Shown: positions 19,060 through 32,561 of the stretch, in pieces | How the letters are laid out: each line of letters starts with the position of its first letter | How positions within the stretch are numbered: the stretch's first letter is position 1 | Source: Hymenobacter metallicola | GTDB taxonomy: Bacteria; Bacteroidota; Bacteroidia; Cytophagales; Hymenobacteraceae | Assembly: GCF_004745645.1 (NCBI RefSeq) | Contig: NZ_SRMB01000005.1 | Location: 372,001-436,000, forward strand | DNA length: 64,000 nucleotides | Reading direction: 5' to 3' | Made by a program: the position numbers and the translations under genes | Notes under the pieces: model-generated | Seen by the model: only the letters and a program-made list of their open reading frames with translations | Told to the model about the DNA's origin: nothing | Databases searched by the model: none

Positions 19060-20346
19060 CTACAGCGCCTTCACGTCCAACGTCAGCGTCACGCCCGCTG
19101 TGGTGCGGCTGATGCCGGTAATGGTGAAGATGGCATACTGGTCGGCGGCCCGCAGGCGGGCAATGACCACGTCGCCCACGGCCACGTTGTCGAGCTGGGC
19201 TACCTGGTTCGTAGCGGCGGCCGTTTGGTAGGTTTGCCGGATGCTGTTCAGGGTAGCCGCGCTGTAGACAGCCGCCGTGGTGCGCACAAATTTTGTAGTG
19301 TTTAGGGCTTTGAGCTGCACGGCGTTGGTGGCAATGCTGCTGATGGCCACGTCCTTGGCTTCCGGGGCCCCGGAAGCTGCTACAGTCGTAAAGGTCGTCA
19401 GGTCGTACGCGGCCTGGTCGCCGCCGGCAGTACCGGTGAAGACAAGCGTGGCGGAGCGGGCCGCGGCCAGGGCCGTGGGGGTAGTAGGCGTAATGGCCGG
19501 GGCCGTAACCGAGGCCGAACGAATGCTGGGGGCTCCGGCCGGGGCGGGCAGGGTGGGCTTGTCCTGGAAGCGCGACTTGGCCTCGAAGCGGTACACCACG
19601 CTTTGCCCGCTCGAGCCCGTGGGCAGCGTCACGTCTACGTTCACCAGCGTGGCCGCCCCCGACTGCGCCCCGGAGCCGACCGGTACCCGCTGCCGCGCCG
19701 CGCGCCGCTCGGGCTGGGTGCCCACGCGCACGAAGGTTATCAGGCTGTCGATGTCCTTGTAGAGGGTGCCGGCGGTGGTAATGGCGGCGGCCGTATTGAT
19801 GCCGCCGGTATTGAGCCGGACCGGGAAGCGCACCACGTCGCCGGGCACGCGGGCCGCGTTGGAAGGTGCCGTCACGTTGGTCGAGGCATCCAGGGAAATG
19901 GTCGGGGTGGGCTCGGCCAGGCGGAAGTTGAAGCTGCGCACCTTGCTCTGGCCGTTGTCGGCCACCACCACGGCATCGACGCGCACGTTGGCCTTGTTGG
20001 CCCCGGCCGGTACCACGTAGTTGACAATCAGCGTGTCGGCCCGGTTGATGCGCGAGTAGGCGGGCTTGTAGGGAATGGTTTGCACCAGCGTGGAGTCGCG
20101 GCCGGGCTCCACTTTCTGCAGAATGCGGATTTCCCGGATAGGGGAAGTCTGCTGGGCAAAGCGCAGCTCAAAGCTCACCGTTTCACCCGTGGCGTACTTG
20201 GTGGTCGTGTTCAGACCATTGGCCAGGAAGGTTGGAATCTGGCCGCCTACTTCCTGGTAGGGTTCTTCCAGTTCTTTGTCGCAGGCGGCCAGGGCCGGGG
20301 CGAGCAGCGCCAGCAGCAGGGTGCGGCGCACAGGGGTATATAACAT
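19060..20346 (-). CDS. Surface lipoprotein of a SusCD operon
   Basis: A 428-residue protein with a lipoprotein signal (MLYTPVRRTLLLALLAPALA then lipobox AAC), followed by acidic residues (CDKELEEPYQE) that fit export to the cell surface. The rest is beta-rich, Thr- and Ala-rich, and looks like two or three Ig-like domains (for example VSFELRFAQQTSPIREI, VRVDAVVVADNGQ, VVYRFEAKS). No named family recognised; by position, third in a SusC-SusD operon, it takes the place of SusE/F-type glycan-binding or accessory proteins. 50 bases separate it from SusD. Confidence 0.75.
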   Translation of the reverse strand: MLYTPVRRTLLLALLAPALAACDKELEEPYQEVGGQIPTFLANGLNTTTKYATGETVSFELRFAQQTSPIREIRILQKVEPGRDSTLVQTIPYKPAYSRINRADTLIVNYVVPAGANKANVRVDAVVVADNGQSKVRSFNFRLAEPTPTISLDASTNVTAPSNAARVPGDVVRFPVRLNTGGINTAAAITTAGTLYKDIDSLITFVRVGTQPERRAARQRVPVGSGAQSGAATLVNVDVTLPTGSSGQSVVYRFEAKSRFQDKPTLPAPAGAPSIRSASVTAPAITPTTPTALAAARSATLVFTGTAGGDQAAYDLTTFTTVAASGAPEAKDVAISSIATNAVQLKALNTTKFVRTTAAVYSAATLNSIRQTYQTAAATNQVAQLDNVAVGDVVIARLRAADQYAIFTITGISRTTAGVTLTLDVKAL

Positions 20347-20395: not shown

Positions 20396-21925
20396 TTAGG
20401 GCATGTCCCACCACAGGGGCTTGGTGATGTAGTCGGGGGCGCTGGCGCCGAGGGCCGCCACGGCCTGCGGGTTATACATCACCTCGGTAGCGCCGGGCAG
20501 CATCCGCCGGGGCCACTGTCCGCCCAGGCCGTTGGGGGCACCCACTGGGTACTTCAGGTTGGGGTAGATAGCCGGGTCGAAGTCGTAGCGGCGCAGGTCC
20601 GACCACGACTCCGGGTTCAGGAACATGGCTATGTACTTCTGCTCCATGATATGTTTGAGGGTCAACTCGGCCTCGGTCTGGGCTACGGCGGCGCTGGCCA
20701 GGTAGGCATCAATCTGGGCGGGCGTAATGGTGGGGAAGGTCACGTTGGGATTGGCAAAGGTGCCGCCCACTCCGATTTTGGTCATGTGGGCCCGGATACC
20801 GGCCTTGTAGGCCGTCAGGGCCCGGCCCTTCTCCCCAGCCTTAAAGGCGGCTTCGGCCTCAATAAACTTCAGTTCGTGGAAGGTAATAACCTCGAAAATA
20901 CCCAGGTCGCGGGCGTACCAGCCATTGTAGAAGTCGGCCACGTTGTTGATCAGATTGCTGGTCGCCGGAATGCCCACCCCGGGGTCGGCGCCGTTGCTGC
21001 TGCCGGCCAGCATAATAGGCAGGCGCGGGTCCGTTACGCCGGGAAAGGCGGCCCCGGTCACACTGCCATTCAGGTAGCGCACGATGTTGTTGGAAAACGT
21101 GGCCGCCCCGAAGTTGGCCCGCGTCACGCCGTAGATGTTGGTCGTGCCCGAGAGCGGGGCCACGGCCACCTGATACTGCAACTGGGCGTCGTCGGCCGCG
21201 TTGCGGAAGCTGGCACTGACGAGCTGCAGAATCTGCTGGGGGTTGTAGGCGGCCTTCTTGCTCAGGTGGTTGAGCTGCCGGGCCTTCAGGGCATTGGCAA
21301 AACGAATCCACTTGTCCGTGTCGCCGCGGTAGAGGATGTCGCCGCTGATGCTGGGCGAGCTGATGTACAGGGGCAGCAGGTTTTCGGCGGCCGGGGTTCT
21401 CATCAGCGCTATGCCCTCGTCGAGCAAAGTCTGCACGGTGGCGTAAATCTGCTCCTGCGGGTCGTACTTGGGCGTGTAGTTCTCGGCGCCTTTAAAGGCT
21501 TCGGAGTAGGGAATGTCGCCCAGCATGTCGGTGGCGTGGGCCAGGTCCATGGCCGTAATGATCTTGCCGGCCCCGATGTAGTAGGGCGCCTTGGCTTTTT
21601 CGGCGGCCTCTATCATAGTCGGCACGTTGCCGGCCGAGTAGAAATAGGCGTAGTTGAAGGTATTGGTGCTGTTGCCGTTGGTCAGCACAAACTGGTCGGT
21701 GCTGCTGGCCGGGGTTTTGCGCACCGCGTACTGGGTGATGTAGGCCGTAGTGAGCGAAGTAAACATCTGCTGCTGAATGCCCTGGGAAATGATGCCGGGC
21801 AGCAGGAAGTTCGGCGACGAGGTAATGGGGTTATTGGGGTCGGTGTTCACGTCGAGAAAACTCTCGCACGAGGTCAGGGCCGCGCCGCTGAGGGCTACAC
21901 CCAGACAGAGGATATATTTTTTCAT
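20396..21925 (-). CDS. SusD/RagB-family lipoprotein (SusD-like type 2)
   Basis: A 509-residue outer-membrane lipoprotein that would cap the partner SusC channel and bind the incoming substrate. The lipobox is TSC (MKKYILCLGVALSG to ALTSC), followed by ESFLDVNTDPNNP, the opening typical of the SusD-like_2 branch. TPR-like helices follow (IGAGKIITAMDLAHATDMLGDIPYSEA is such a stretch, given here only as the DMLGDIPYSEAF motif) and near the C-terminus MEQKYIAMFLNPESWSD and the final QWPRRMLP. It lies 48 bases after the SusC gene. The substrate cannot be told from sequence; the first susC leader suggests sulfur or cysteine control. Confidence 0.9.
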   Translation of the reverse strand: MKKYILCLGVALSGAALTSCESFLDVNTDPNNPITSSPNFLLPGIISQGIQQQMFTSLTTAYITQYAVRKTPASSTDQFVLTNGNSTNTFNYAYFYSAGNVPTMIEAAEKAKAPYYIGAGKIITAMDLAHATDMLGDIPYSEAFKGAENYTPKYDPQEQIYATVQTLLDEGIALMRTPAAENLLPLYISSPSISGDILYRGDTDKWIRFANALKARQLNHLSKKAAYNPQQILQLVSASFRNAADDAQLQYQVAVAPLSGTTNIYGVTRANFGAATFSNNIVRYLNGSVTGAAFPGVTDPRLPIMLAGSSNGADPGVGIPATSNLINNVADFYNGWYARDLGIFEVITFHELKFIEAEAAFKAGEKGRALTAYKAGIRAHMTKIGVGGTFANPNVTFPTITPAQIDAYLASAAVAQTEAELTLKHIMEQKYIAMFLNPESWSDLRRYDFDPAIYPNLKYPVGAPNGLGGQWPRRMLPGATEVMYNPQAVAALGASAPDYITKPLWWDMP

Positions 21926-21973: not shown

Positions 21974-24900
21974 TTAAAAGTTCACGCGCAGGCCCATGTC
22001 CACGCCGCGGGTGGCGGGCACGCTGCCGTAGTCGAAGCCCGAGGAGCCGCCCCCGCGCACCCCGGCCCCGGCCGAAGCCGTTTCGGGGTCGACGCCGGAG
22101 TAGTTGGTCAGCAGCACCAGGTTGCGGCCCGTCACGCTCAGCTCCACGCCGCGCACGAAGGACGAGCCCAGCCAGGCGGCGGGCAGCGCGTAGCTCAGCG
22201 TCACGTAGCGCAGGCGCGTCCAGGAGGCATCTTCCACGAAGGAGGCGGCCGTGCCGGTCAGCACGTTCTGGTAGTAGCCCTGGGTCAGCTCCGTGGGCCG
22301 GGTGTTTTTCACGTAGCCGCCGTCAGAGTTGAGCAGGGGGCCCGTGTTGTTGGCGTTGGCCAGCACCCCGTCGAAGACTACCTGCTTGTAGCGGTCCAGG
22401 GTGCGGGTGCTCATGCCGGTTTTGGTAGCCAGCCAGTCGTTGCCGTTCACCACGTCGCCGCCCTGGCGGAAATCAACCAGGAAGCTTAGGTTCAGCCCCT
22501 GATAGGTGAAGGAGTTGGTGACTTGCACCGTGTAGTCGGGTGCGCGGTTGCCGGCGTACTCAAACACGCCGGTATTAACGATGGGGTAGCCCGAGGCATC
22601 GATGAGCAGCTGGCCGTCGGGGGTACGCTTAAAGTCTACGGCGCTGATGGAGGAAATCGGCTTGCCGGGAAAGGCCCCGCCCCGGGCCCAGTCGATGACA
22701 AAGGCGTCGGACTGGTACACCTCGGTCAGGAAGCTGGGCAGCTGGGTGGCGCGGTTGCGGTTCAGGGTGAAGTTGGCAATAACGTCCCAGCTCAGGCCCT
22801 GGGTCGACTTCAGCGGGGCGCCGGTCAGGGCCAGCTCCAGGCCCTTGTTTTCCACGGTGCCCCCGTTGATGTACTGCAGAATAAAGGCCGTGGCCTGGCT
22901 CACGCGGGGCGCAATGAGCTGGTCGCGGGTTTCCTGGTAGTAAGCGGCCACGTCCAGGGTCAGGCGGTTCTGCAGGAATTGCAGGTCCAGGCCGGCTTCC
23001 ACCGAGCGGGTTTGCTCGGGCTTAAGCAGGCGGTTGGAGCCGAAGAAGCCGTTGCGGAAGCCGCCCCCGATGTAGGTGCTCTGGGCCAGCGGCGAGTCGA
23101 CGCGGTAGGGGCCTGTGTCTTTACCCACCACGGCCACCGAGCCGCGCAGCTTGCCGTAGTTCAGAATCGGGTTTTGGTCCAGGCCCAAGGTGCGGGTGAA
23201 TTCCCAGCCCAGGGCCGCCGAACCGTAGCCGAAGGCCCGGCCGAAGTTCTTGTTTTTCTCGGGCCGGGGCAGCGTCGACGACATATCGAGGCGGCCGTTC
23301 AGCTCCAGGGTTATCTGCTGCAGAAAGTCCAGGTTGAGGCGGGCAAAGTTGCCGATCAGGCGCCGCTCCTTGTTGGTAATAAGCGTGTTGCGGTTTACCG
23401 TGTTGTTGATGCTGACAAAGTCCGGGTTCTGGAAGATGCGGCCGTAGTTGTCCGTCGTTTCGTTGCGGCTCACTTCCACCGTATTGCCCAGCACCAGCGA
23501 GGAGCCCAGGTTTTCACTGAACTTGTGGTTGAGCGTCACCAGGAAGTTGGAGGTCAGCAGGCGGTTGATGATGGTGGTTTCCGCAATGCCCCCGTCCTGG
23601 TTATCGGGCTGGGAAGTGCCCACGGCCCGCACCGAGCGGTCTTTCTGGGAGTAAAAGTCGGTGCCGATGTTGTAGCTCACCGAGGCCCACTTGGCGGCCT
23701 CAAACGTGACCTGCGCGTTGCCGATCATGCGGTTGGTGCGCGTGGTCTGGGGGTTGCGGTAGATGGTGAAGTAGGGGTTGTCCGGGTCGCCGGCCGAGGT
23801 GGCCGCGCCCAGCAGGCGGCGGCGGGTGCCGTCGGGGTTGAGGTAGTTGCGGGCGTCGTCGTTGCGGGGCCAGTTCAGCAGGCTGGTGAAAAAGCCGCTG
23901 GGATTCAGGCCGGTACCAAACAGGCCCCCGCCCTGGAACGGCGACTGGCCGCCGCTGTTCAGGTACTGGGTCGAGGCCGAGCCGCTGAACTTGGGCGAAA
24001 ACTGCACCGTGCCCGAGGCCCGCACCGTCGACTTGTCGTAGAGCGTGTTGGGCACCACCCCCTTCTGGTCGAGGCGGGAAGCCGACACGAGGAAGGTGGC
24101 CTTGTCGCCGCCGCCCGACATGGTCAGGTAGTGCTGCCAGGCCGTGCCTTTCTGGAACAGGTTGCCCAGGTTGTCATATATCGGCTCGCCCTCGCCAAAG
24201 CGCGGCCCCCAGGAAGCGCGGGTTGTCGCGTCGAAGATGCCGTTGGAACCCTGCTTGTACTGGTCCTGCAGCGTGGGCAGGCGGTTCACCTCGTCCACCG
24301 AAAACTGGGTGCGGTAGTTGATGTTGGTGCGGCCTGCCGTGCCTTTTTTGGTCGTGATAATCACGGCTCCGTTGGCGGCGCGCAGGCCGTAGAGCGCTGC
24401 TGCTGCCGGACCCTTGAGCACCGTCATACTGGCAATATCCTCGGGGTTCAGGTCGCCGGCCCGGTTCTGACTCACGGCGCTGCGGCCCAGCTGCCCGTTG
24501 AAGGCCGAGCCCCCGCCGGGGGAAGTCGACTCCACAAAGGAGGAGTTGTCCATGATGATGCCGTCGATAACAAACAGGGGCTGGTTGTCGCCGTCGAGCG
24601 AGTTGCCGCCCCGGATGACAATGGCCGAGCCTTCGCCGGGGGCGCCCCCGGCGCTGGTAATCTGCACGCCGGCCACCTTGCCCTGCAGGGCATTGACGAT
24701 GTTGGTCTGCCGCGACTCGATGATGTCCTTGGACTTCACTTCCTGGGCCGCGTAGTTGATCTGCCGCCGTTCCTGCTTGATGCCGTAGGCCGTGACGACC
24801 ACGTCGTTCAGATTGGTCGTGTTTTCGGCCAGGCTGATGTTGATGCTGGCGTCGGTGCCCACCACGCGTTCCTGCGTCGTGAAGCCGATAAAGCTGAACG

Positions 24901-25120
24901 TAAGCGTACTGCCCGGGGCGGCCTGCACCGAGTAGCGGCCGTCGGCGCCGGTGCTGGCCCCGGTGCTGGTGCCCTTCACCAGCACGGTTACGCCGGGCAA
25001 GGGGCTGCCTTTGGTATCAGACACTACGCCCGAAACGGCGCGGGGCTGGCCGGTTTGGGCGTAGGAGCCGGGCCCCAGCAGCACTCCGAGCGCCAACAGA
25101 AGCCATAAAAGTTTTTTCAT
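21974..25120 (-). CDS. SusC/RagA-family TonB-linked outer-membrane transporter
   Basis: A 1,048-residue transporter that imports oligomers or nutrients bound by its SusD partner using TonB energy. The start at 25120 gives a signal peptide (MKKLLWLLLALGVLLGPGSY). Residues of about 20-105 form the carboxypeptidase-regulatory-like domain (VSGVVSDTKGSPLPGVTV), then the plug (VVVTAYGIKQERR, NALQGKVAGVQI, VIRGGNSL, MTVLKGPAAAALYG, GAVIITTKKG), and about 800 residues of barrel ending in MGLRVNF. It is the first gene of a leftward operon with SusD and a lipoprotein. A leader ORF and terminator hairpin lie between its promoter and start. Confidence 0.95.
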   Translation of the reverse strand: MKKLLWLLLALGVLLGPGSYAQTGQPRAVSGVVSDTKGSPLPGVTVLVKGTSTGASTGADGRYSVQAAPGSTLTFSFIGFTTQERVVGTDASINISLAENTTNLNDVVVTAYGIKQERRQINYAAQEVKSKDIIESRQTNIVNALQGKVAGVQITSAGGAPGEGSAIVIRGGNSLDGDNQPLFVIDGIIMDNSSFVESTSPGGGSAFNGQLGRSAVSQNRAGDLNPEDIASMTVLKGPAAAALYGLRAANGAVIITTKKGTAGRTNINYRTQFSVDEVNRLPTLQDQYKQGSNGIFDATTRASWGPRFGEGEPIYDNLGNLFQKGTAWQHYLTMSGGGDKATFLVSASRLDQKGVVPNTLYDKSTVRASGTVQFSPKFSGSASTQYLNSGGQSPFQGGGLFGTGLNPSGFFTSLLNWPRNDDARNYLNPDGTRRRLLGAATSAGDPDNPYFTIYRNPQTTRTNRMIGNAQVTFEAAKWASVSYNIGTDFYSQKDRSVRAVGTSQPDNQDGGIAETTIINRLLTSNFLVTLNHKFSENLGSSLVLGNTVEVSRNETTDNYGRIFQNPDFVSINNTVNRNTLITNKERRLIGNFARLNLDFLQQITLELNGRLDMSSTLPRPEKNKNFGRAFGYGSAALGWEFTRTLGLDQNPILNYGKLRGSVAVVGKDTGPYRVDSPLAQSTYIGGGFRNGFFGSNRLLKPEQTRSVEAGLDLQFLQNRLTLDVAAYYQETRDQLIAPRVSQATAFILQYINGGTVENKGLELALTGAPLKSTQGLSWDVIANFTLNRNRATQLPSFLTEVYQSDAFVIDWARGGAFPGKPISSISAVDFKRTPDGQLLIDASGYPIVNTGVFEYAGNRAPDYTVQVTNSFTYQGLNLSFLVDFRQGGDVVNGNDWLATKTGMSTRTLDRYKQVVFDGVLANANNTGPLLNSDGGYVKNTRPTELTQGYYQNVLTGTAASFVEDASWTRLRYVTLSYALPAAWLGSSFVRGVELSVTGRNLVLLTNYSGVDPETASAGAGVRGGGSSGFDYGSVPATRGVDMGLRVNF

Positions 25121-25160
25121 AGGAGAGAGAGGAATTGGGTGGAAGGATAGGGAAAAGGGC

Positions 25161-25208
25161 AAAAGCAAAACCGGAGCCCCGCTACACTTGGGCAGCAGGA
25201 CTCCGGTT
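25161..25208 (-). terminator. Terminator hairpin in the susC leader (putative attenuator)
   Basis: On the minus strand AACCGGAGTCC pairs with GGGCTCCGGTT over 11 base pairs (one wobble), with further pairing inside the loop (GCT with AGC), followed by TTTTGCTTTT. It lies 40 bases before the susC ATG and 14 bases after the stop of a 13-codon leader ORF. A terminator at this place would prevent susC transcription unless overridden, which is the layout of attenuation. Confidence 0.75.
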
Positions 25209-25222
25209 GGAGAAAAGCAAGG

Positions 25223-25264
25223 CTAGGAGGGTAGGGCCAGACACCGACACAGGACGATTTTCAT
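25223..25264 (-). CDS. Putative 13-residue leader peptide (Cys-Arg-Cys)
   Basis: An ATG at 25264 starts a 14-codon ORF encoding MKIVLCRCLALPS and stopping at 25223, just before the terminator hairpin at 25161-25208. Two Cys codons (TGT) flank an Arg in the middle, the right kind of signal for ribosome stalling when charged Cys-tRNA is scarce. A -7-like promoter element (TATCTTCTG) lies 45 bases upstream. Its size, position and composition are like amino-acid attenuation leaders; no similar peptide was compared because no search could be run. Confidence 0.5.
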   Translation of the reverse strand: MKIVLCRCLALPS

Positions 25265-25309
25265 GGGAGAATTCGGCGCTGAAAAGTTGAGAGGAAACGG
25301 CAATACGGA

Positions 25310-25337
25310 CAGAAGATAAAGCTTTTATTCAAAAAAC
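25310..25337 (-). promoter_or_regulatory. Possible promoter of the leader and SusCD operon
   Basis: On the minus strand TATCTTCTG (25310-25318) resembles TAnnTTTG, with a T-run TTTTTTG at about 25331-25337 upstream. The spacing is shorter than the usual 19-21 bases, so this is tentative. The predicted transcript starts near 25302. Confidence 0.35.
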
Positions 25338-25482
25338 TCCTGTTCAGGCTTGAAGAAATGCCAAATGCGGCTACCGTCAAACTATATAGGAGATTTTAGG
25401 TATTTTGAAGCCCGGTACCTTCCCCTCACCGAGGCCCGCCAGAAGCTTGGCTACGCCCGGCCTCTTCCACCAGCGCCCACCC

Positions 25483-27396
25483 ATGATGCCCGCTACGCCT
25501 CCGCCCGCCTTGTCCGTTACTATCCACCCCGACTCCGAAACGGCTTCGGCGGCCGTGGCCCGCTCCATTGCCGAGCTGATCTGGCTGCGGCAGAAGGAAG
25601 GGCGTACCGTGGTGCTGGGGCTGGCCACGGGCTCGTCGCCCACCCGCGTGTATGAGGAGCTGGTGCGCCTGCACCGCGAAGAGGGCCTGAGCTTTCAGAA
25701 CGTCATCAGCTTCAACCTCGACGAGTACTACCCCATGCCGCCCGACTCGCTGCAGAGCTACGTGCGCTTCATGCATGAGTACTTGTTCGACCACGTCGAC
25801 ATCCGGCCCGAAAACGTGCACATCCCCGACGGTACCCTGCCCCAGGAGCAGGTAGCCGAGTTCTGCGCCCAGTACGAAGCGCAGATCCGGGCCGCCGGGG
25901 GCATCGATTTGCAGCTGCTCGGCATTGGCCGCACCGGCCACATCGGCTTCAACGAGCCCGGCTCCGGGCCCGACTCGCGCACCCGCCTGATAACGCTCGA
26001 CCACATCACCCGCACCGACGCCGCCTCCGACTTTTACGGGGAGGAAAACGTGCCCCGCCGGGCCCTGACGATGGGCGTGGGCACGATTCTGGAAGCCCGC
26101 CACATTGTGCTGCTGGCCTGGGGCGAGGGTAAAGCTGCCGTCATCAAGCGCATGGTGGAAGGGGAGCCCAGCGACTCGGTGCCGGCCACCTACCTGCAGA
26201 AGCATCCGTGGGTGGACGTCGTGCTCGATGAGGCCGCCGGGGCCGAGCTGCCCGAGCGCAAAACGCCCTGGCTGGCCGGGGTGCCCTGCCGCTGGCAAGA
26301 CGAAGCCCTGGTGCGCAAGGCCGTAACCTGGCTGGCGCGCCGCCTCGAAAAGCCCATTCTCAAGCTCACCGACGAGGAATACAACGAAAACGGCCTGTCG
26401 GCGCTGCTGGCCGAGTCGGGCCGGGCCTACAGCATCAACATCCGGGTCTTCAACCAACTCCAGCACACTATTACGGGCTGGCCCGGCGGCAAACCCGACG
26501 CCGACGATACCCACCGCCCCGAGCGGGCCGAGCCCTTTCCCAAGCGGGTGCTTATCTTCTCGCCCCACCCCGACGACGACGTAATCAGCATGGGCGGCAC
26601 GCTGCTGCGCCTCGTGGAGCAGGGCCACGAGGTGCACGTGGCCTACCAGACCTCGGGTAATATTGCCGTCTTCGATGACGAAACCCTGCGCTTCGCCGAG
26701 TTTGTGGCCGACTACGACGCGGCTTTTCGCCTGGACGAGCAGCCGGCCGAAAACCTCTACCAGCGCGTGGCCGAGTTTCTGCGCAACAAAGCGCCCGGCC
26801 AGGTCGACTCGCCCGAGGTGCAGCAGATCAAGGGCCTGATCCGGCGGGGCGAGGCCAAGGCCGCCTGCCGCTACGCCGGCATCCCCGACGACCAGGCCCA
26901 CTTCATGGACCTGCCGTTTTACGAAACCGGGCGGGTGCGCAAAAAGCCTATCGGGGAGGAGGATATCCGCCTGACGATGGAGATGCTCAACCAGATCCGG
27001 CCCCAGCAGATTTACGCCGCCGGCGACTTGTCGGACCCCCACGGCACCCATCGGGTGTGCCTGGCCGCCATTTTCGAGGCCGTGCGCCGCCTCAAGCAAA
27101 CCCACACCGACTGGCTGGCCGACTGCTGGGTGTGGCTCTACCGCGGGGCCTGGCAGGAGTGGGATATCGACCAGATTGAAATGGCCGTACCCCTGAGCCC
27201 CGAGGAACTCACCCGCAAGCGCCGGGCCATCTTCAAGCACCAGTCGCAGAAGGACCGGCCGCTGTTTCCCGGGGCCGACCAGCGCGAATTCTGGCAGCGC
27301 TCCGAAGCCCGCAACCGTACCACGGCCAAAATCTACGACCAGCTGGGCCTGCCTGAGTACGAGGGCATCGAGGCGTTTGTGCGCTGGGTGTTCTAA
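25483..27396 (+). CDS. nagB: Glucosamine-6-phosphate deaminase (NagB) fused to a PIG-L/LmbE deacetylase-like domain
   Basis: A 637-residue two-domain cytoplasmic protein. Residues 10-270 are NagB, which turns glucosamine-6-phosphate into fructose-6-phosphate and ammonia: LATGSSP, Asp80 in FNLDEYY, GRTGHIGFNEPGSG with His153 and Glu158, and ARHIVLLAWGEGKA. At the place of the usual E. coli Asp141 there is Thr151, a change I recall as common in this Bacteroidota two-domain group. Residues of about 350-637 are a PIG-L domain with metal site HPDDDVISMGG (His362), which removes N-acetyl groups in related enzymes. Together they could deacetylate and deaminate one amino sugar. Start at 25483 (the second of two adjacent ATG options is 25486) because the upstream translation is unlikely. 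A hairpin follows. Confidence 0.92.
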   Translation: MMPATPPPALSVTIHPDSETASAAVARSIAELIWLRQKEGRTVVLGLATGSSPTRVYEELVRLHREEGLSFQNVISFNLDEYYPMPPDSLQSYVRFMHEYLFDHVDIRPENVHIPDGTLPQEQVAEFCAQYEAQIRAAGGIDLQLLGIGRTGHIGFNEPGSGPDSRTRLITLDHITRTDAASDFYGEENVPRRALTMGVGTILEARHIVLLAWGEGKAAVIKRMVEGEPSDSVPATYLQKHPWVDVVLDEAAGAELPERKTPWLAGVPCRWQDEALVRKAVTWLARRLEKPILKLTDEEYNENGLSALLAESGRAYSINIRVFNQLQHTITGWPGGKPDADDTHRPERAEPFPKRVLIFSPHPDDDVISMGGTLLRLVEQGHEVHVAYQTSGNIAVFDDETLRFAEFVADYDAAFRLDEQPAENLYQRVAEFLRNKAPGQVDSPEVQQIKGLIRRGEAKAACRYAGIPDDQAHFMDLPFYETGRVRKKPIGEEDIRLTMEMLNQIRPQQIYAAGDLSDPHGTHRVCLAAIFEAVRRLKQTHTDWLADCWVWLYRGAWQEWDIDQIEMAVPLSPEELTRKRRAIFKHQSQKDRPLFPGADQREFWQRSEARNRTTAKIYDQLGLPEYEGIEAFVRWVF

Positions 27397-27772: not shown

Positions 27773-27872
27773 TCCTTTCTATCTGAAACCCGCAACCTTA
27801 TGAGGAAGCAAGGTGCTGGCATTTTGCAGGCTGTTCTTCGGCAAATCAAATTTCCACCATACTTCCCACCTC

Positions 27873-30851
27873 ATGAAAAACTGGTTACTTCTGATTGGGC
27901 TGCTGCTCGGCCTGGCCGGGCACGCCCGCGCCCAACAAGCCCGCCAACTCTCCGGGCAGGTGCTCGATGAAGCCTCGGGTCAGGGGCTGCCGGGCGTAAC
28001 GGTGGTCGTGAAAAACACCACTATCGGAGCCAGCACCGACGGCAGCGGCAACTTCAGCCTGGCGGTGCCCGCCGGAACCGAGCCCACGCTGGTGCTGAGC
28101 TACGTGGGCTATCTGGCCCAGACCGTGACGGTCGACAATACCAACAGCATCACGGTAAAGCTCAAAACCGACCAGAAAGCCCTGGATGAAGTGGTGGTTA
28201 TCGGCTACGGGGAAGTAAAGAAAAGCGACGTGACCGGCTCCATTGTGTCGGTAAAAGAGGAAGACCTCAAGAAGGTGCCCGCCGCTAACGTGATGGAAAC
28301 CCTGCAGGGCCGCCTGCCCGGCGTAGACATCACCAGTGCCGGGGGCTCGGCCGGGGCCGCCGTGAACATTACCGTGCGCGGCAACCGCTCGATTCTGGCC
28401 AGCAACGGCCCATTGTTTATCGTCGACGGGGTGCAGTACAACTCCATTCAGGATATCAACCCCAACGATATTCAGAACATGGAGGTGCTCAAGGATGCCG
28501 CTTCCACGGCCATCTACGGGGCCCGGGGCGCCAACGGGGTTATCATCGTGACGACCAAAAAAGGCAGCGCTGGCAAAACCCGCGTGACGCTGAACTCCTA
28601 CTACGGCCAGACCGACGCGGTTTTCTACCCCGAGGTCAACAACGGGGAGCAGTACGTGGCCCAGAAGCGCGAAGCCAACCGCGCCAGTGGCACTTGGACC
28701 AGCCCCGCCGACGACGCGAAGATCTTCACGCCCCTGGAGCTGCAGGCCATTGCCAACGGCACGTCCACCAACTGGGCCGATTTGCTCCTGCGCAACGGCG
28801 TGCAGCAGGAACACCAGGTGGGCGTAGCGGGCGGCTCGGAAAAAACCAAGTTTTACCTCTCGGCCGACTTCTACAACGAGCAGGGCCTGTTCCGCAACGA
28901 CGACCTGAACCGCTACTCCTTCCGGGCCAACATCGACCAGGCCATCAACGACAAAATCCGGGTGGGCCTGCAAAACCAGCTGACTTACTACAACCTGGAT
29001 GCCCGGCGCGACCCGACCAATATGGCCAACAAGATTAACCCCTTGAGCACGCCCTACGACGCCAGCGGGAACTTTGTGAACTACCCCAACAACCAGGCCT
29101 TCCTCAACCCGCTCACCGACGAGCGGGCCGATACCTACGTCAACAACACCCGCCGGACGCGTACCTTCTCGACGGCCTACCTGAGCTACCAGATTCTGCC
29201 CAGCCTGAACTTCCGCTCCAACCTGGGCCTGACGCTGTCGAATGACCGCACCGGCATCTTCCAGGGGCAGTACTCCATCGACCGGAACGGGCAGATCAAC
29301 CAGGCTTCCTATGGCACTGGCTTTGAAACCAACTGGAGCTGGGAAAACATCCTGAACTTCAACAAGACCTTCGGCGACCATTCCGTGAACGTCACCGGCG
29401 TTACCTCGCTGCTGACCTTCAACAACGAGGCTTCCCTGGCCCAGGGCCGGGGCGTGCCGGTATCGTACCAGCAGTTCTACGCCCTGGCCAACTCCGGGCA
29501 GGTAGTAACCTCTTACACCGACCTCAAGCGCAGTGAGCTACGCTCCCTCACGGCCCGGGTGCAGTATGGCTTCAAGAGCCGCTACCTGCTCACGCTGACC
29601 GGGCGGCAGGACCGCTCCTCGAAGCTGGCCAAAGACAACCAGGTGGCCTTTTTCCCCTCGGCCGCCGTGGCCTGGCGCGTGGTCGACGAAAGCTTCATGA
29701 AGGACTTCACCGCCGTTACCGACCTCAAGCTGCGCGCCAGCTACGGCCGGGCCGGCAACTACGACGTGGCACCCTACTCCTCGCAAAGCCTGCTGACGCG
29801 CATTCCCTTCAGCTTCGGCGAAACCAGCGCCGCCGGCTACGGCTTCGACAAGCGCGTGGGCAACACCAACCTGGGCTGGGAAATTTCCTGGACCAAAAAC
29901 GCGGGCCTCGACTTTGGTTTGTTCCGCAACCGCCTCACCGGTTCCATTGATGTGTACGAAACCCTGACCAGTGACCTGCTGCTCGACAACAACCTGCCCT
30001 CGACTACGGGCCGGGGCAACATCATCGAAAACATCGGCAAAACCCGCAACCGCGGGGTAGAAGTGGGCCTGAATGCCCTGGCCCTGGAAACGCCCGACTT
30101 TCGCTGGAATGTAGGCGCCACCTGGTTCAAGAACAACGAGGAAATCCTGGAGCTGGGCGGAGCCGACGACCTGCTCAACAACCGCTTCGTGGGCTACCCC
30201 GTGCGCGTGTTCTACGACTACGAGAAAATCGGCATCTGGCAGACCGACGAAGCCGATGCCGCCAAAGCCTTTGGCCAGAAGCCCGGCCAGATCAAGGTGA
30301 AGGATATTTCGGGGCCCAACGGCGTGCCCGACGGCAAGATTACGGCTACCTACGACCGGCGGGTGCTGGGCGCGGCCGTGCCCAAGTGGAGCGGCAGCTT
30401 CAACAGCGACATGAGCTACAAGGGCTTCGACTTGTCTTTCCAGGTCTTTGCCCGCATCGGCCAGATGATCAACTACGAGTACGCCCAGATCTTCGACCCC
30501 CAGGGCATCGAAAACAGCGGCGTGCACAACTACTGGACCCCCGAGAACCCCAGCAACGACTACCCCCGGCCCGACGCGGCCCTGTCGAAGTCGACGATGC
30601 AGAACAGCCTCTTTGGTACCACGCTGCAATACAGGGATGGCTCCTTTGCCAAGCTGCGCGGCGTAACGCTGGGCTACAACCTGCCCAAGGGCTTCCTGGA
30701 AAAATTCGGCATGGGCTCGGCCCGCCTCTACGTGCAGGGCAAAAACCTGGTGACCGTCAGCAAAATCGACAACTACGACCCCGAGCGGGGCGGCCCCATC
30801 ACCACGCCCATTCCGCGGGTGGTGCTGGCCGGCATCAACCTGGGCTTTTAA
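27873..30851 (+). CDS. SusC/RagA-family TonB-linked outer-membrane transporter (second)
   Basis: A 992-residue transporter. The ATG at 27873 gives a signal peptide (MKNWLLLIGLLLGLAGHARA). Residues 22-105 are the carboxypeptidase-regulatory-like domain (LSGQVLDEASGQGLPGV, DGSGNFSLAVP), the plug follows (EVVVIGYGEVKKSDVTGS, ETLQGRLPGVDI, GPLFIVDGVQYNS, MEVLKDAASTAIYGARGANG), then the barrel to the final IPRVVLAGINLGF. The clear TonB box-like stretch is EVVVIGYG. Its SusD partner follows 42 bases on. Next to the NagB/PIG-L gene it may import N-acetylated amino sugar oligomers such as chitin or peptidoglycan fragments; this is inference from neighbours. Confidence 0.95.
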   Translation: MKNWLLLIGLLLGLAGHARAQQARQLSGQVLDEASGQGLPGVTVVVKNTTIGASTDGSGNFSLAVPAGTEPTLVLSYVGYLAQTVTVDNTNSITVKLKTDQKALDEVVVIGYGEVKKSDVTGSIVSVKEEDLKKVPAANVMETLQGRLPGVDITSAGGSAGAAVNITVRGNRSILASNGPLFIVDGVQYNSIQDINPNDIQNMEVLKDAASTAIYGARGANGVIIVTTKKGSAGKTRVTLNSYYGQTDAVFYPEVNNGEQYVAQKREANRASGTWTSPADDAKIFTPLELQAIANGTSTNWADLLLRNGVQQEHQVGVAGGSEKTKFYLSADFYNEQGLFRNDDLNRYSFRANIDQAINDKIRVGLQNQLTYYNLDARRDPTNMANKINPLSTPYDASGNFVNYPNNQAFLNPLTDERADTYVNNTRRTRTFSTAYLSYQILPSLNFRSNLGLTLSNDRTGIFQGQYSIDRNGQINQASYGTGFETNWSWENILNFNKTFGDHSVNVTGVTSLLTFNNEASLAQGRGVPVSYQQFYALANSGQVVTSYTDLKRSELRSLTARVQYGFKSRYLLTLTGRQDRSSKLAKDNQVAFFPSAAVAWRVVDESFMKDFTAVTDLKLRASYGRAGNYDVAPYSSQSLLTRIPFSFGETSAAGYGFDKRVGNTNLGWEISWTKNAGLDFGLFRNRLTGSIDVYETLTSDLLLDNNLPSTTGRGNIIENIGKTRNRGVEVGLNALALETPDFRWNVGATWFKNNEEILELGGADDLLNNRFVGYPVRVFYDYEKIGIWQTDEADAAKAFGQKPGQIKVKDISGPNGVPDGKITATYDRRVLGAAVPKWSGSFNSDMSYKGFDLSFQVFARIGQMINYEYAQIFDPQGIENSGVHNYWTPENPSNDYPRPDAALSKSTMQNSLFGTTLQYRDGSFAKLRGVTLGYNLPKGFLEKFGMGSARLYVQGKNLVTVSKIDNYDPERGGPITTPIPRVVLAGINLGF

Positions 30852-30893: not shown

Positions 30894-32561
30894 ATGAAAT
30901 TTTCGAAGAAGATCTATAGCATCGTTGCGGCCTGCGCCCTGGTTGGGCTTTCCACGTCCTGCAGCAAGGAGCTAGAAGAATACAACCCCTCGGGCCTCAC
31001 CCCCGACGCGGTATACACCACCCCGGGCGGATTTGAAAACCTGGTGAATGCCGCCTACTCCTACACCCGCTGGTGGTACGGCAAGGAAGACGGCTTCAGC
31101 ATGTCGGAAATGGGCACCGACCTGTGGCTGCGCGGGGCCGGCGACGTAAACCCCGACCTGACCGACTACACCACGCTGCAGTCCAGCTCCCGGGCCGTGG
31201 AGTCGCTCTGGAGCAAGCTCTACATCGGCATCAACGTCTGCAATGCCGGCATCAGCCGCGTGGGGCAGTCGGGCATGAGCGACGCGCTGAAAAAGACCCG
31301 GGAAGGCGAGCTGCGCTTTTTGCGGGCCTTCTACTACTGGCACATTGTGGAAAGCTGGGGCGGGGTGCACTTCACCACCGAGGAAACCCAGGGCGCCGTG
31401 AAAACGGCCAACCGCACTCCCGTGGACGAGTTCTACAAGCAGATTTTTGCCGACCTCGACATTGCCGTGGCCAACCTGCCCGCCACCCTGGCCGTGGCCA
31501 CCGAGTACGGCCGCGTGACCAAGCCCGTAGCCGAGGCGTTTCTGGCCAAGATGTATCTGACCCGTGGCGAAAACCAGAAGGCCGCCGACCTGGCCCAGAA
31601 AGTCATTACCAGCTACGGCTTCTCGCTGCAGCCCCGCTACGCGGATCTGTGGTCGATGACCAACCTGGAGAACAAGGAAATCGTGTGGGCCGTGAACTAC
31701 TCCCGCGACCTGACCCTGAACGACCGGGTCGACGCGGGCCTGTACCCCGACGGCCACTCGCGCGGGGGCAACAACGGCCACCTGCTCTGGCTCATGAAGT
31801 ACGACGACCAGCCCGGCATGACCCGCGACGTGGCCAACGGCCGGCCCTTCAACCGCTTCATGCCCACCAAGTTTCTGCTCAACCTGTTCGACGAAACCAA
31901 GGATGCGCGCTACGCGGCTTCTTTCCGCACGGTGTGGCTGGCCAACACGGCCGTCACGACGGGCACCAAACCCCTGGCCGTGGGCGACACGGCTATTCTG
32001 GCCACCAAGAAGGTGGTATCCACGGCCGTGCGGAACGCCAAAAAGTACCGCGTCTACGATGTCAACGACATTTACAACGCCAACGGTACGGGCAAAAACC
32101 GCTTACAGTACGTGTGCCTGCGCAAGTTTGAGGACCCCACCCGGCCCACCATTCAGGAGGAGCAGAGTGCCCGCGACGCCTACGTAATCCGGCTGGCCGA
32201 CGTGTACCTGCTGGCCGCCGAAGCCAACTTCAAGCTGGGCAAGCTTGATGATGCCGTCAAGCAAATCAACGCGGTGCGGGAGCGGGCGGCCCTGCCCGGC
32301 AAAGTAGCCGACATGCGCATCAGCGCCGCCAACCTCAGCCTGGACTTTATCCTGGATGAGCGGGCCCGGGAGCTGGCCGGCGAGCAGCACCGCTGGTTTG
32401 ATTTGAAGCGCACGAACAAGCTGGTTGACCGGGTGAAGGCCAACAACCCCGAGGCCGGAGCCAGTATTCAGCCTTTTCACCTGGTGCGCCCCATTCCCCA
32501 GCGCCAGCTCGATGCCGTGACCAACAAGAGTGAGTTTATTCAGAACCCCAACTACCGGTAA
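30894..32561 (+). CDS. SusD/RagB-family lipoprotein (second)
   Basis: A 555-residue outer-membrane lipoprotein partner of the SusC just upstream. Lipobox LSTSC (residues 19-23), then SKELEEYNPSGLTPDAVY. Helical repeats of the SusD fold follow (ELRFLRAFYYWHIVESWGGV is the hallmark, AEAFLAKMYLTRGE, RLADVYLLAAEANFKLG), and the C-terminus has LDFILDERARELAGEQHRWFDL, here given in part as DERARELAGE, before RTNKLVDRV and the final IPQRQLDAV. It is followed at once by a terminator, so the operon is a simple SusC-SusD pair. Confidence 0.94.
   Translation: MKFSKKIYSIVAACALVGLSTSCSKELEEYNPSGLTPDAVYTTPGGFENLVNAAYSYTRWWYGKEDGFSMSEMGTDLWLRGAGDVNPDLTDYTTLQSSSRAVESLWSKLYIGINVCNAGISRVGQSGMSDALKKTREGELRFLRAFYYWHIVESWGGVHFTTEETQGAVKTANRTPVDEFYKQIFADLDIAVANLPATLAVATEYGRVTKPVAEAFLAKMYLTRGENQKAADLAQKVITSYGFSLQPRYADLWSMTNLENKEIVWAVNYSRDLTLNDRVDAGLYPDGHSRGGNNGHLLWLMKYDDQPGMTRDVANGRPFNRFMPTKFLLNLFDETKDARYAASFRTVWLANTAVTTGTKPLAVGDTAILATKKVVSTAVRNAKKYRVYDVNDIYNANGTGKNRLQYVCLRKFEDPTRPTIQEEQSARDAYVIRLADVYLLAAEANFKLGKLDDAVKQINAVRERAALPGKVADMRISAANLSLDFILDERARELAGEQHRWFDLKRTNKLVDRVKANNPEAGASIQPFHLVRPIPQRQLDAVTNKSEFIQNPNYR

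Follow-up and report, generated by a model that had tools for sequence, protein, structure and literature searches.

A candidate cysteine-codon leader-peptide attenuator upstream of a susCD operon in Hymenobacter

For most SusCD importers the substrate is not known, and it is commonly guessed from glycoside hydrolase genes nearby. A leader whose translation reads the codons of one amino acid would name the nutrient tied to its importer, here cysteine or sulfur, and a substrate test of the SusCD pair would become direct. Ribosome-mediated transcription attenuation of amino-acid operons, as in the trp, his and ilv leaders, is classical. In Hymenobacter metallicola, a short open reading frame (ORF) with two Cys codons and a terminator-like hairpin precede a susC gene, which raises the question of whether an outer-membrane importer can be under such control, as the original prediction for this locus had proposed. 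We addressed this question in the window (the whole stretch of DNA that was analysed, 64,000 nucleotides) and in orthologous loci of the genus and family.

The predicted 13-codon ORF with twin Cys codons is present on the minus strand (Table 1), and the interval between its stop codon and the hairpin was confirmed as 14 nt; the hairpin itself, described as 11 base pairs in the original prediction, is longer, with 17 contiguous pairs. None of 200 dinucleotide shuffles matched the stability of the window hairpin, which was the top-ranked terminator-like site there, and the second Cys codon of MKIVLCRCLALPS ends 32 nt 5' of the hairpin base. For susC, the mechanical ORF list gave a TTG start at 25168; an ATG at 25120 (MKKLLWLLLALGVLLGPGSYAQ) agrees with a signal peptide and the orthologs and sits 48 nt past the hairpin end. 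A pattern describing the Cys ORF together with its stop codon had a single match in the window, where 0 were expected, a result that proves little alone because the pattern was derived from the site itself. Rfam riboswitches and amino-acid leaders gave 0 matches in the window at gathering score. Downstream, a SusC profile match with an adjacent SusD marks a SusC/SusD pair, and tblastn matches to the third gene adjoin 17 of 31 named SusD loci. The neighbouring gene on the far side of the leader is transcribed divergently, so the leader can be assigned to susC. Beyond that divergent gene lie a second susC (27813-30851) and then a susD (30894-32561).

Table 1. Positions of the leader elements, the operon and the neighbouring gene in the window.
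Feature	Position	Strand	Remarks
Third operon gene, putative lipoprotein	19060..20346	-	no Pfam match
susD, SusD-like_2 / SusD-like lipoprotein	20396..21925	-	PF12771, 166.4 bits
susC, SusC/RagA-type TonB-dependent transporter	21974..25120	-	TIGR04056, 597.6 bits (cut-off 368.25)
T-rich tail TTGCTTTTGC	25159..25168	-	directly 3' of hairpin
Terminator-like hairpin	25169..25208	-	17 contiguous pairs (G-U included), -31.9 kcal/mol
Candidate segment 2 (18 nt 5' of hairpin)	25209..25226	-	possible antiterminator with hairpin 5' arm, CUCC/GGAG
Leader ORF MKIVLCRCLALPS, 13 codons	25223..25264	-	ATG 25264-25262, stop TAG 25225-25223
Candidate segment 1 (start codon to past Cys codons)	25238..25264	-	can pair with segment 2, GAAAA/UUUUC
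Putative control codons TGT CGG TGT (Cys-Arg-Cys)	25241..25249	-	TGT at 25249-25247 and 25243-25241
Promoter-like site, weak	25381..25409	-	4 such sites in region vs 2.9 expected
Divergent gene, glucosamine-6-phosphate isomerase domain and PIG-L de-N-acetylase (deacetylase) domain	25486-27396	+	

A DNA search of 120 genus genomes with the 321-base leader gave matches in 9 genomes only. The leader is therefore too diverged for DNA similarity, and orthologous loci were sought via SusD, which was found (E <= 1e-60) in 87 of the 120 genomes. Besides the window, 86 upstream regions were sought and 85 obtained, and the SusC start was placed in 84 of these, which together with the window gave 85 loci; G093, whose contig was too short to yield a region, and L124 (G047), which yielded no SusC start, were left out. 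Conservation in orthologous operons had been set beforehand as the check on the original prediction, and it bore the prediction out: a Cys-bearing short ORF followed by a covarying hairpin occurred at 34 of the 85 Hymenobacter loci (window included) and was absent from 51, and a Cys-bearing ORF preceded a hairpin of unrelated sequence at 8 of 8 loci in a sister genus. When defined as an ATG ORF of 7-60 codons within 220 nt upstream of susC and with C.?C in codons 2-14, a Cys-pair ORF was present at 27 of 85 loci, compared to a mean of 2.1 and a maximum of 6 in 30 sets of dinucleotide shuffles. The same definition applied to control regions (n=85 each) gave 2 on the antisense strand, 2 at -440..-220, 4 at -660..-440 and 2 inside susC. 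Among doubled residues in the upstream ORFs, Cys ranked first (27), followed by Leu (15) and Ala (13).

For alignment, 34 leaders with a Cys ORF and hairpin were chosen by hand from the 85, including L120, which was taken for its aligned Tyr-Tyr form; the start of L060 is GTG, and L090 and L095 begin at an in-frame ATG further upstream. The leader peptides (for example MKIVLCRCLALPS, MEIVLLCCSSLVS, MKTSSCLCFAPH, MGTCTCLCIVPQ, MTTCCCLFFSH, MSTRCRCSFFYQ and MANTLLCCFLLVCVLFHRPEPDCA) are variable in length and in sequence outside a core, which is CC in 23, CxC in 6, a single Cys in 4 and Tyr-Tyr in 1, indicating that residues are kept and not one fixed nucleotide string. Within the first 12 codons, 75 Cys codons are in frame as compared to 31 and 12 in the other frames. 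Leader Cys codons are mostly TGT (65, TGC 18), although TGT is the rarer Cys codon in 12 hand-picked ORFs of the window (TGT 8, TGC 31). Cys codons are kept in frame, as would be expected of control codons, and we infer translation of the ORF from this sequence pattern. The distance from Cys codon to hairpin is near-constant although the ATG-to-Cys distance and the ORF length vary: in 30 of the 34 genus leaders, 28-32 nt separate the end of a Cys codon from the hairpin base, the exceptions being L074, L096 and L105 (CCC, 20-26 nt) and L120. Because this spacing holds in 36 of 42 leaders when the sister genus is included, while ORF length and hairpin sequence vary, it argues for control by ribosome position. 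Tyr replaces one or both core Cys residues in L120, L077, L083 and L099 (YY, YC), which looks like a drift of the control codon towards Tyr in certain lineages. As a separate observation, the third base of codon 3, usually C, has a pairwise identity of 0.79 in the aligned leaders vs 0.23-0.39 for its neighbours.

The hairpin of the 34 genus leaders has a consensus of 11 pairs, with two-sided changes in 9 and 96% of cells paired. None of 500 shuffles equalled it on any measure, and pairing fell to 55-60% when the hairpin was shifted by one column. A covarying hairpin with a T-rich tail, as in the intrinsic terminators of attenuators, is thus found between the ORF and susC, with weak T-tracts in part of the aligned genus leaders. 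A covariance model of the leader, run with strict filters, gave 34 strong matches in the 120 genus genomes, all at this locus and all members of its training set, and no comparably strong match elsewhere in 204 family genomes. Five weak matches (L168-L172) were considered as further copies and rejected as lone hairpins without a Cys ORF. Taken as a sequence pattern, a translated-looking ORF, Cys codons at a fixed distance and a covarying, terminator-like hairpin are conserved together and limited to this operon.

In the sister genus (Solirubrum group; 8 genomes, including Solirubrum puertoriconensis and Hymenobacter-named species), the hairpin is of unrelated sequence (type CGCGCGGCTATATAGCCGCGCG). 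It is nevertheless preceded by the Cys-bearing ORF (for example MSAVFASCCTAAPSFSEAYRRAAI and MSSTCCGCFLHYRSLAL), in which the Cys codons are separated by several codons, and 6 of 8 leaders again have a Cys codon whose end lies 28-32 nt from the hairpin. That the hairpin has been exchanged wholesale while the Cys codons and their spacing stayed is the strongest single argument for the Cys codons and ribosome position as the operative features.

Attenuation by a stalled ribosome would be expected to involve an alternative fold, and tests for an antiterminator, which the original prediction had named as a point to check, gave mixed results. A first test, based on the duplex energy of the whole 32-nt interval, gave no signal. 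When the last 18 nt before the hairpin were paired with its 5' arm, the genus set reached -6.29 kcal/mol as compared to -5.2 to -5.3 kcal/mol, with 0 of 200 shuffles as stable, and a 22-nt segment was matched by 3 of 200 shuffles; both tests are partly post hoc, as they were run after the null 32-nt test. A 30-nt segment gave no signal in the genus set (149 and 158 of 200 shuffles), and a control by swapping between lineages was weak (18 of 200). In the window itself, the pairing comprises 4 pairs at -4.4 kcal/mol, and 16 of 200 shuffles were equally stable. The test failed in the sister genus, where the same 18-nt and 22-nt segments gave no sign of an antiterminator and 281 of 300 shuffles were equally stable. 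Pairing of the ORF start with the whole interval was matched by 4 and 0 of 300 shuffles in the genus set, where two controls disagreed on pairing of the ORF start with the last 18 nt (68 and 0 of 300); in the sister genus, 88 and 13 of 300 shuffles were as stable as the pairing of segment 1 with segment 2, which gives this pairing no clear support there. Because the leader sequences are related, these shuffle counts overstate independence. Overall, an alternative pairing in the genus leaders is partly supported by the predicted folds.

These analyses indicate that a ribosome-mediated leader-peptide attenuator that reads Cys codons probably controls the susCD operon. RNA polymerase would transcribe the leader while a ribosome behind it translates the short ORF. 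When cysteine is scarce, the ribosome would stall once the conserved Cys codon reached its A site and would leave about 20 nt free before the hairpin, an estimate based on the size of the ribosome footprint; these nucleotides could then base-pair with the terminator's 5' arm, so that transcription would run on into susCD. When cysteine is plentiful, the ribosome would advance and cover this segment, the terminator would form and the importer would not be made. The original reading of translation-coupled attenuation is supported by conservation, compensatory changes in the hairpin, the Cys-to-hairpin distance and an independent leader before cysH (see below); translation, premature termination, a cysteine signal and its sign are inferred for this leader. 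A trp-like sign, in which cysteine shortage raises expression, is the more likely one.

The sign could be reversed if the stop codon lies inside the hairpin, as it does in 16 of 34 leaders from the genus and 5 of 8 from the sister genus; a ribosome that finishes there would impede termination instead of permitting it. A ribosome completing the leader would then occupy or abut the hairpin and block termination, and the importer would be made with charged tRNA-Cys and be off when it is scarce. The sister genus without an antiterminator would fit such a design, which we nevertheless regard as unlikely: in the window and 10 other genus leaders the stop lies 7-16 nt 5' of the hairpin, where a ribosome need not open it, and Cys codons would not be required at a fixed 28-32 nt. 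Moreover, the genus set has alternative pairings, and an importer that is off during shortage is harder to explain. In several leaders (L068, L073, L076, L078, L091, L092 and L118; in the sister genus L156-L159 and L161) the stop TAG is in the hairpin loop, often inside CTGC..TAGCAG or GGCTATATAGCC.

The remaining explanations are less probable still. The ribosome could be arrested by Cys residues of the nascent peptide that respond to a metal, a ligand or the redox state, and Bordetella indeed has Cys-rich leader peptides that respond to copper. Here, the core Cys residues are at codons 3-9 and would still be in the exit tunnel when read, the remaining peptide is not conserved, and the constant feature is the codon-to-hairpin distance, so that we consider nascent-peptide sensing very unlikely. 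It is more improbable still that TGTTGT, the commonest form among the leaders, is a binding site for a protein or RNA with an incidental ORF, since CRC, CLC, CTCLC and CCC variants lose the string and retain in-frame Cys codons, frame 0 holds the 75 Cys codons against 31 and 12, and sister-genus Cys codons are several codons apart. That the hairpin merely terminates some upstream or antisense (e.g. DonS-like) transcript, as an ordinary terminator without regulatory link to the ORF, is just as hard to credit, even with antisense RNAs described near susC genes in Bacteroides (in the cited part of PMC7366714) and a palindromic hairpin with weak opposite-strand covariance-model matches, given that the upstream gene is divergent and no sense transcript ends at the hairpin, that the susC strand carries the T-rich tail, and that Cys ORF enrichment is confined to this strand.

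The attenuator reading for susCD gains credibility from Cys leaders before cysH, where cysteine control is expected. In the same genome, an MMCCPCC ORF (ATG ATG TGC TGT CCG TGT TGT TAG; L207:1199-1222) precedes a cysH-like gene at L207:1396, the first sulfate-assimilation reductase gene. Among the best 30 of 81 cysH matches in the genus, 20 are preceded by an ATG ORF whose last four codons include two or more for Cys, compared to a mean of 0.33 and a maximum of 3 in shuffles. For other genera, 20 of 58 cysH matches were examined, with the sister-genus upstream regions being L239-L257. A Cys-rich ORF was found before cysH at 6 of 6 loci examined in one sister genus (MVYSSHIERMRFCCCSSCCCCC), at 6 of 7 in another (ending CCCCCCMC, as in ...NCCCCCCMC, and similar) and, with the ending RRACC, at 7 of 7 loci of the Solirubrum group. 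These poly-cysteine ORFs are likely an old cysteine attenuator of the family. No Cys leader was found at the two best cysK-type loci of the genome. The idea that the susC leader compensates for a lost cysH was not supported, as cysH is present in 20 of 34 genomes with and 36 of 51 genomes without the leader (p 0.35).

Regarding the substrate, the solved chain closest to SusC is BT_2264 (E 3.9e-88; next 1.7e-54; RagA 9.2e-37), while SusD matches several SusD homologs with none dominant. Structures of Bt2261-64, which includes BT_2264, and of RagAB have been solved with oligopeptide ligands, according to the cited part of PMC7782687. It is plausible that the SusCD pair studied here is an oligopeptide importer under cysteine control. 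A peptide or another sulfur source would be its substrate, and the operon would then be the sulfur-responsive uptake system originally envisaged. Whether susCD and the cysH operon, both preceded by Cys-codon leaders in Hymenobacter and the sister genus, make up a translation-sensed cysteine regulon is evenly poised; the importer would in that case scavenge sulfur, probably as Cys-containing peptides, when charged tRNA-Cys falls.

Like the trp, his and ilv leaders, the susC leader combines a short ORF with control codons, a terminator-like hairpin at a fixed distance and an operon. Unlike these, its target is an outer-membrane SusCD importer and not a biosynthetic pathway, its antiterminator is not clearly conserved, and its stop is often in the hairpin. 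Short ORFs with runs of Cys codons are also known from actinobacterial leaders such as those of the mycobacterial cys operons. There, the passages cited place the Cys codons close to the stop and describe no terminator that is conserved (PMC1262725), and the M. smegmatis Cys leader has been reported, in the cited part of the source, as translation attenuation (PMC13236596). In contrast, the susC leader has Cys codons near the start, a conserved terminator-like hairpin and SusCD downstream, and therefore differs from the actinobacterial arrangement, in which a run of Cys codons immediately precedes the stop and genes for cysteine biosynthesis follow; cysH leaders in this family, unlike the susC leader, do end in Cys. 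Within the same phylum and with the same general mechanism, leader-peptide attenuation has been predicted for operons of amino-acid biosynthesis in Flavobacterium psychrophilum, with no importer or cysteine case named in the sections cited (PMC9723704). DonS-type cis-antisense control likewise acts on susC at the RNA level, but through an antisense RNA and not a translated leader, as described in the cited part of PMC7366714. According to the relevant passages of a 2010 survey, leader-peptide systems were known only from Proteobacteria and Actinobacteria, apart from the survey's own case in Firmicutes and the atypical ermC leader (PMC2965389). Our literature search, which left out most subscription journals, found no leader peptide before susC. 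If the present reading is true, leader-peptide attenuation reaches outer-membrane import and, together with the cysH leaders, cysteine-codon leaders would be established in Bacteroidota.

Outside Hymenobacter and the sister genus, none of 5 Rufibacter loci has the leader. When 31 named loci were scanned automatically, with a stricter pattern that overlooks sister-genus forms such as L176 and L189, it was found at 5 loci and at none of the 16 Pedobacter and more distant loci. Among named Hymenobacter species, H. lucidus and H. duratus have the leader. In a tree of 98 SusC N-termini, built on about 100 residues and with many forks open, the 42 leader-bearing rows require 9 changes, as compared to 31.9 with shuffled labels. 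Since leader-bearing rows are found on both sides of the tree and need few changes, the leader likely has an old origin and was repeatedly lost.
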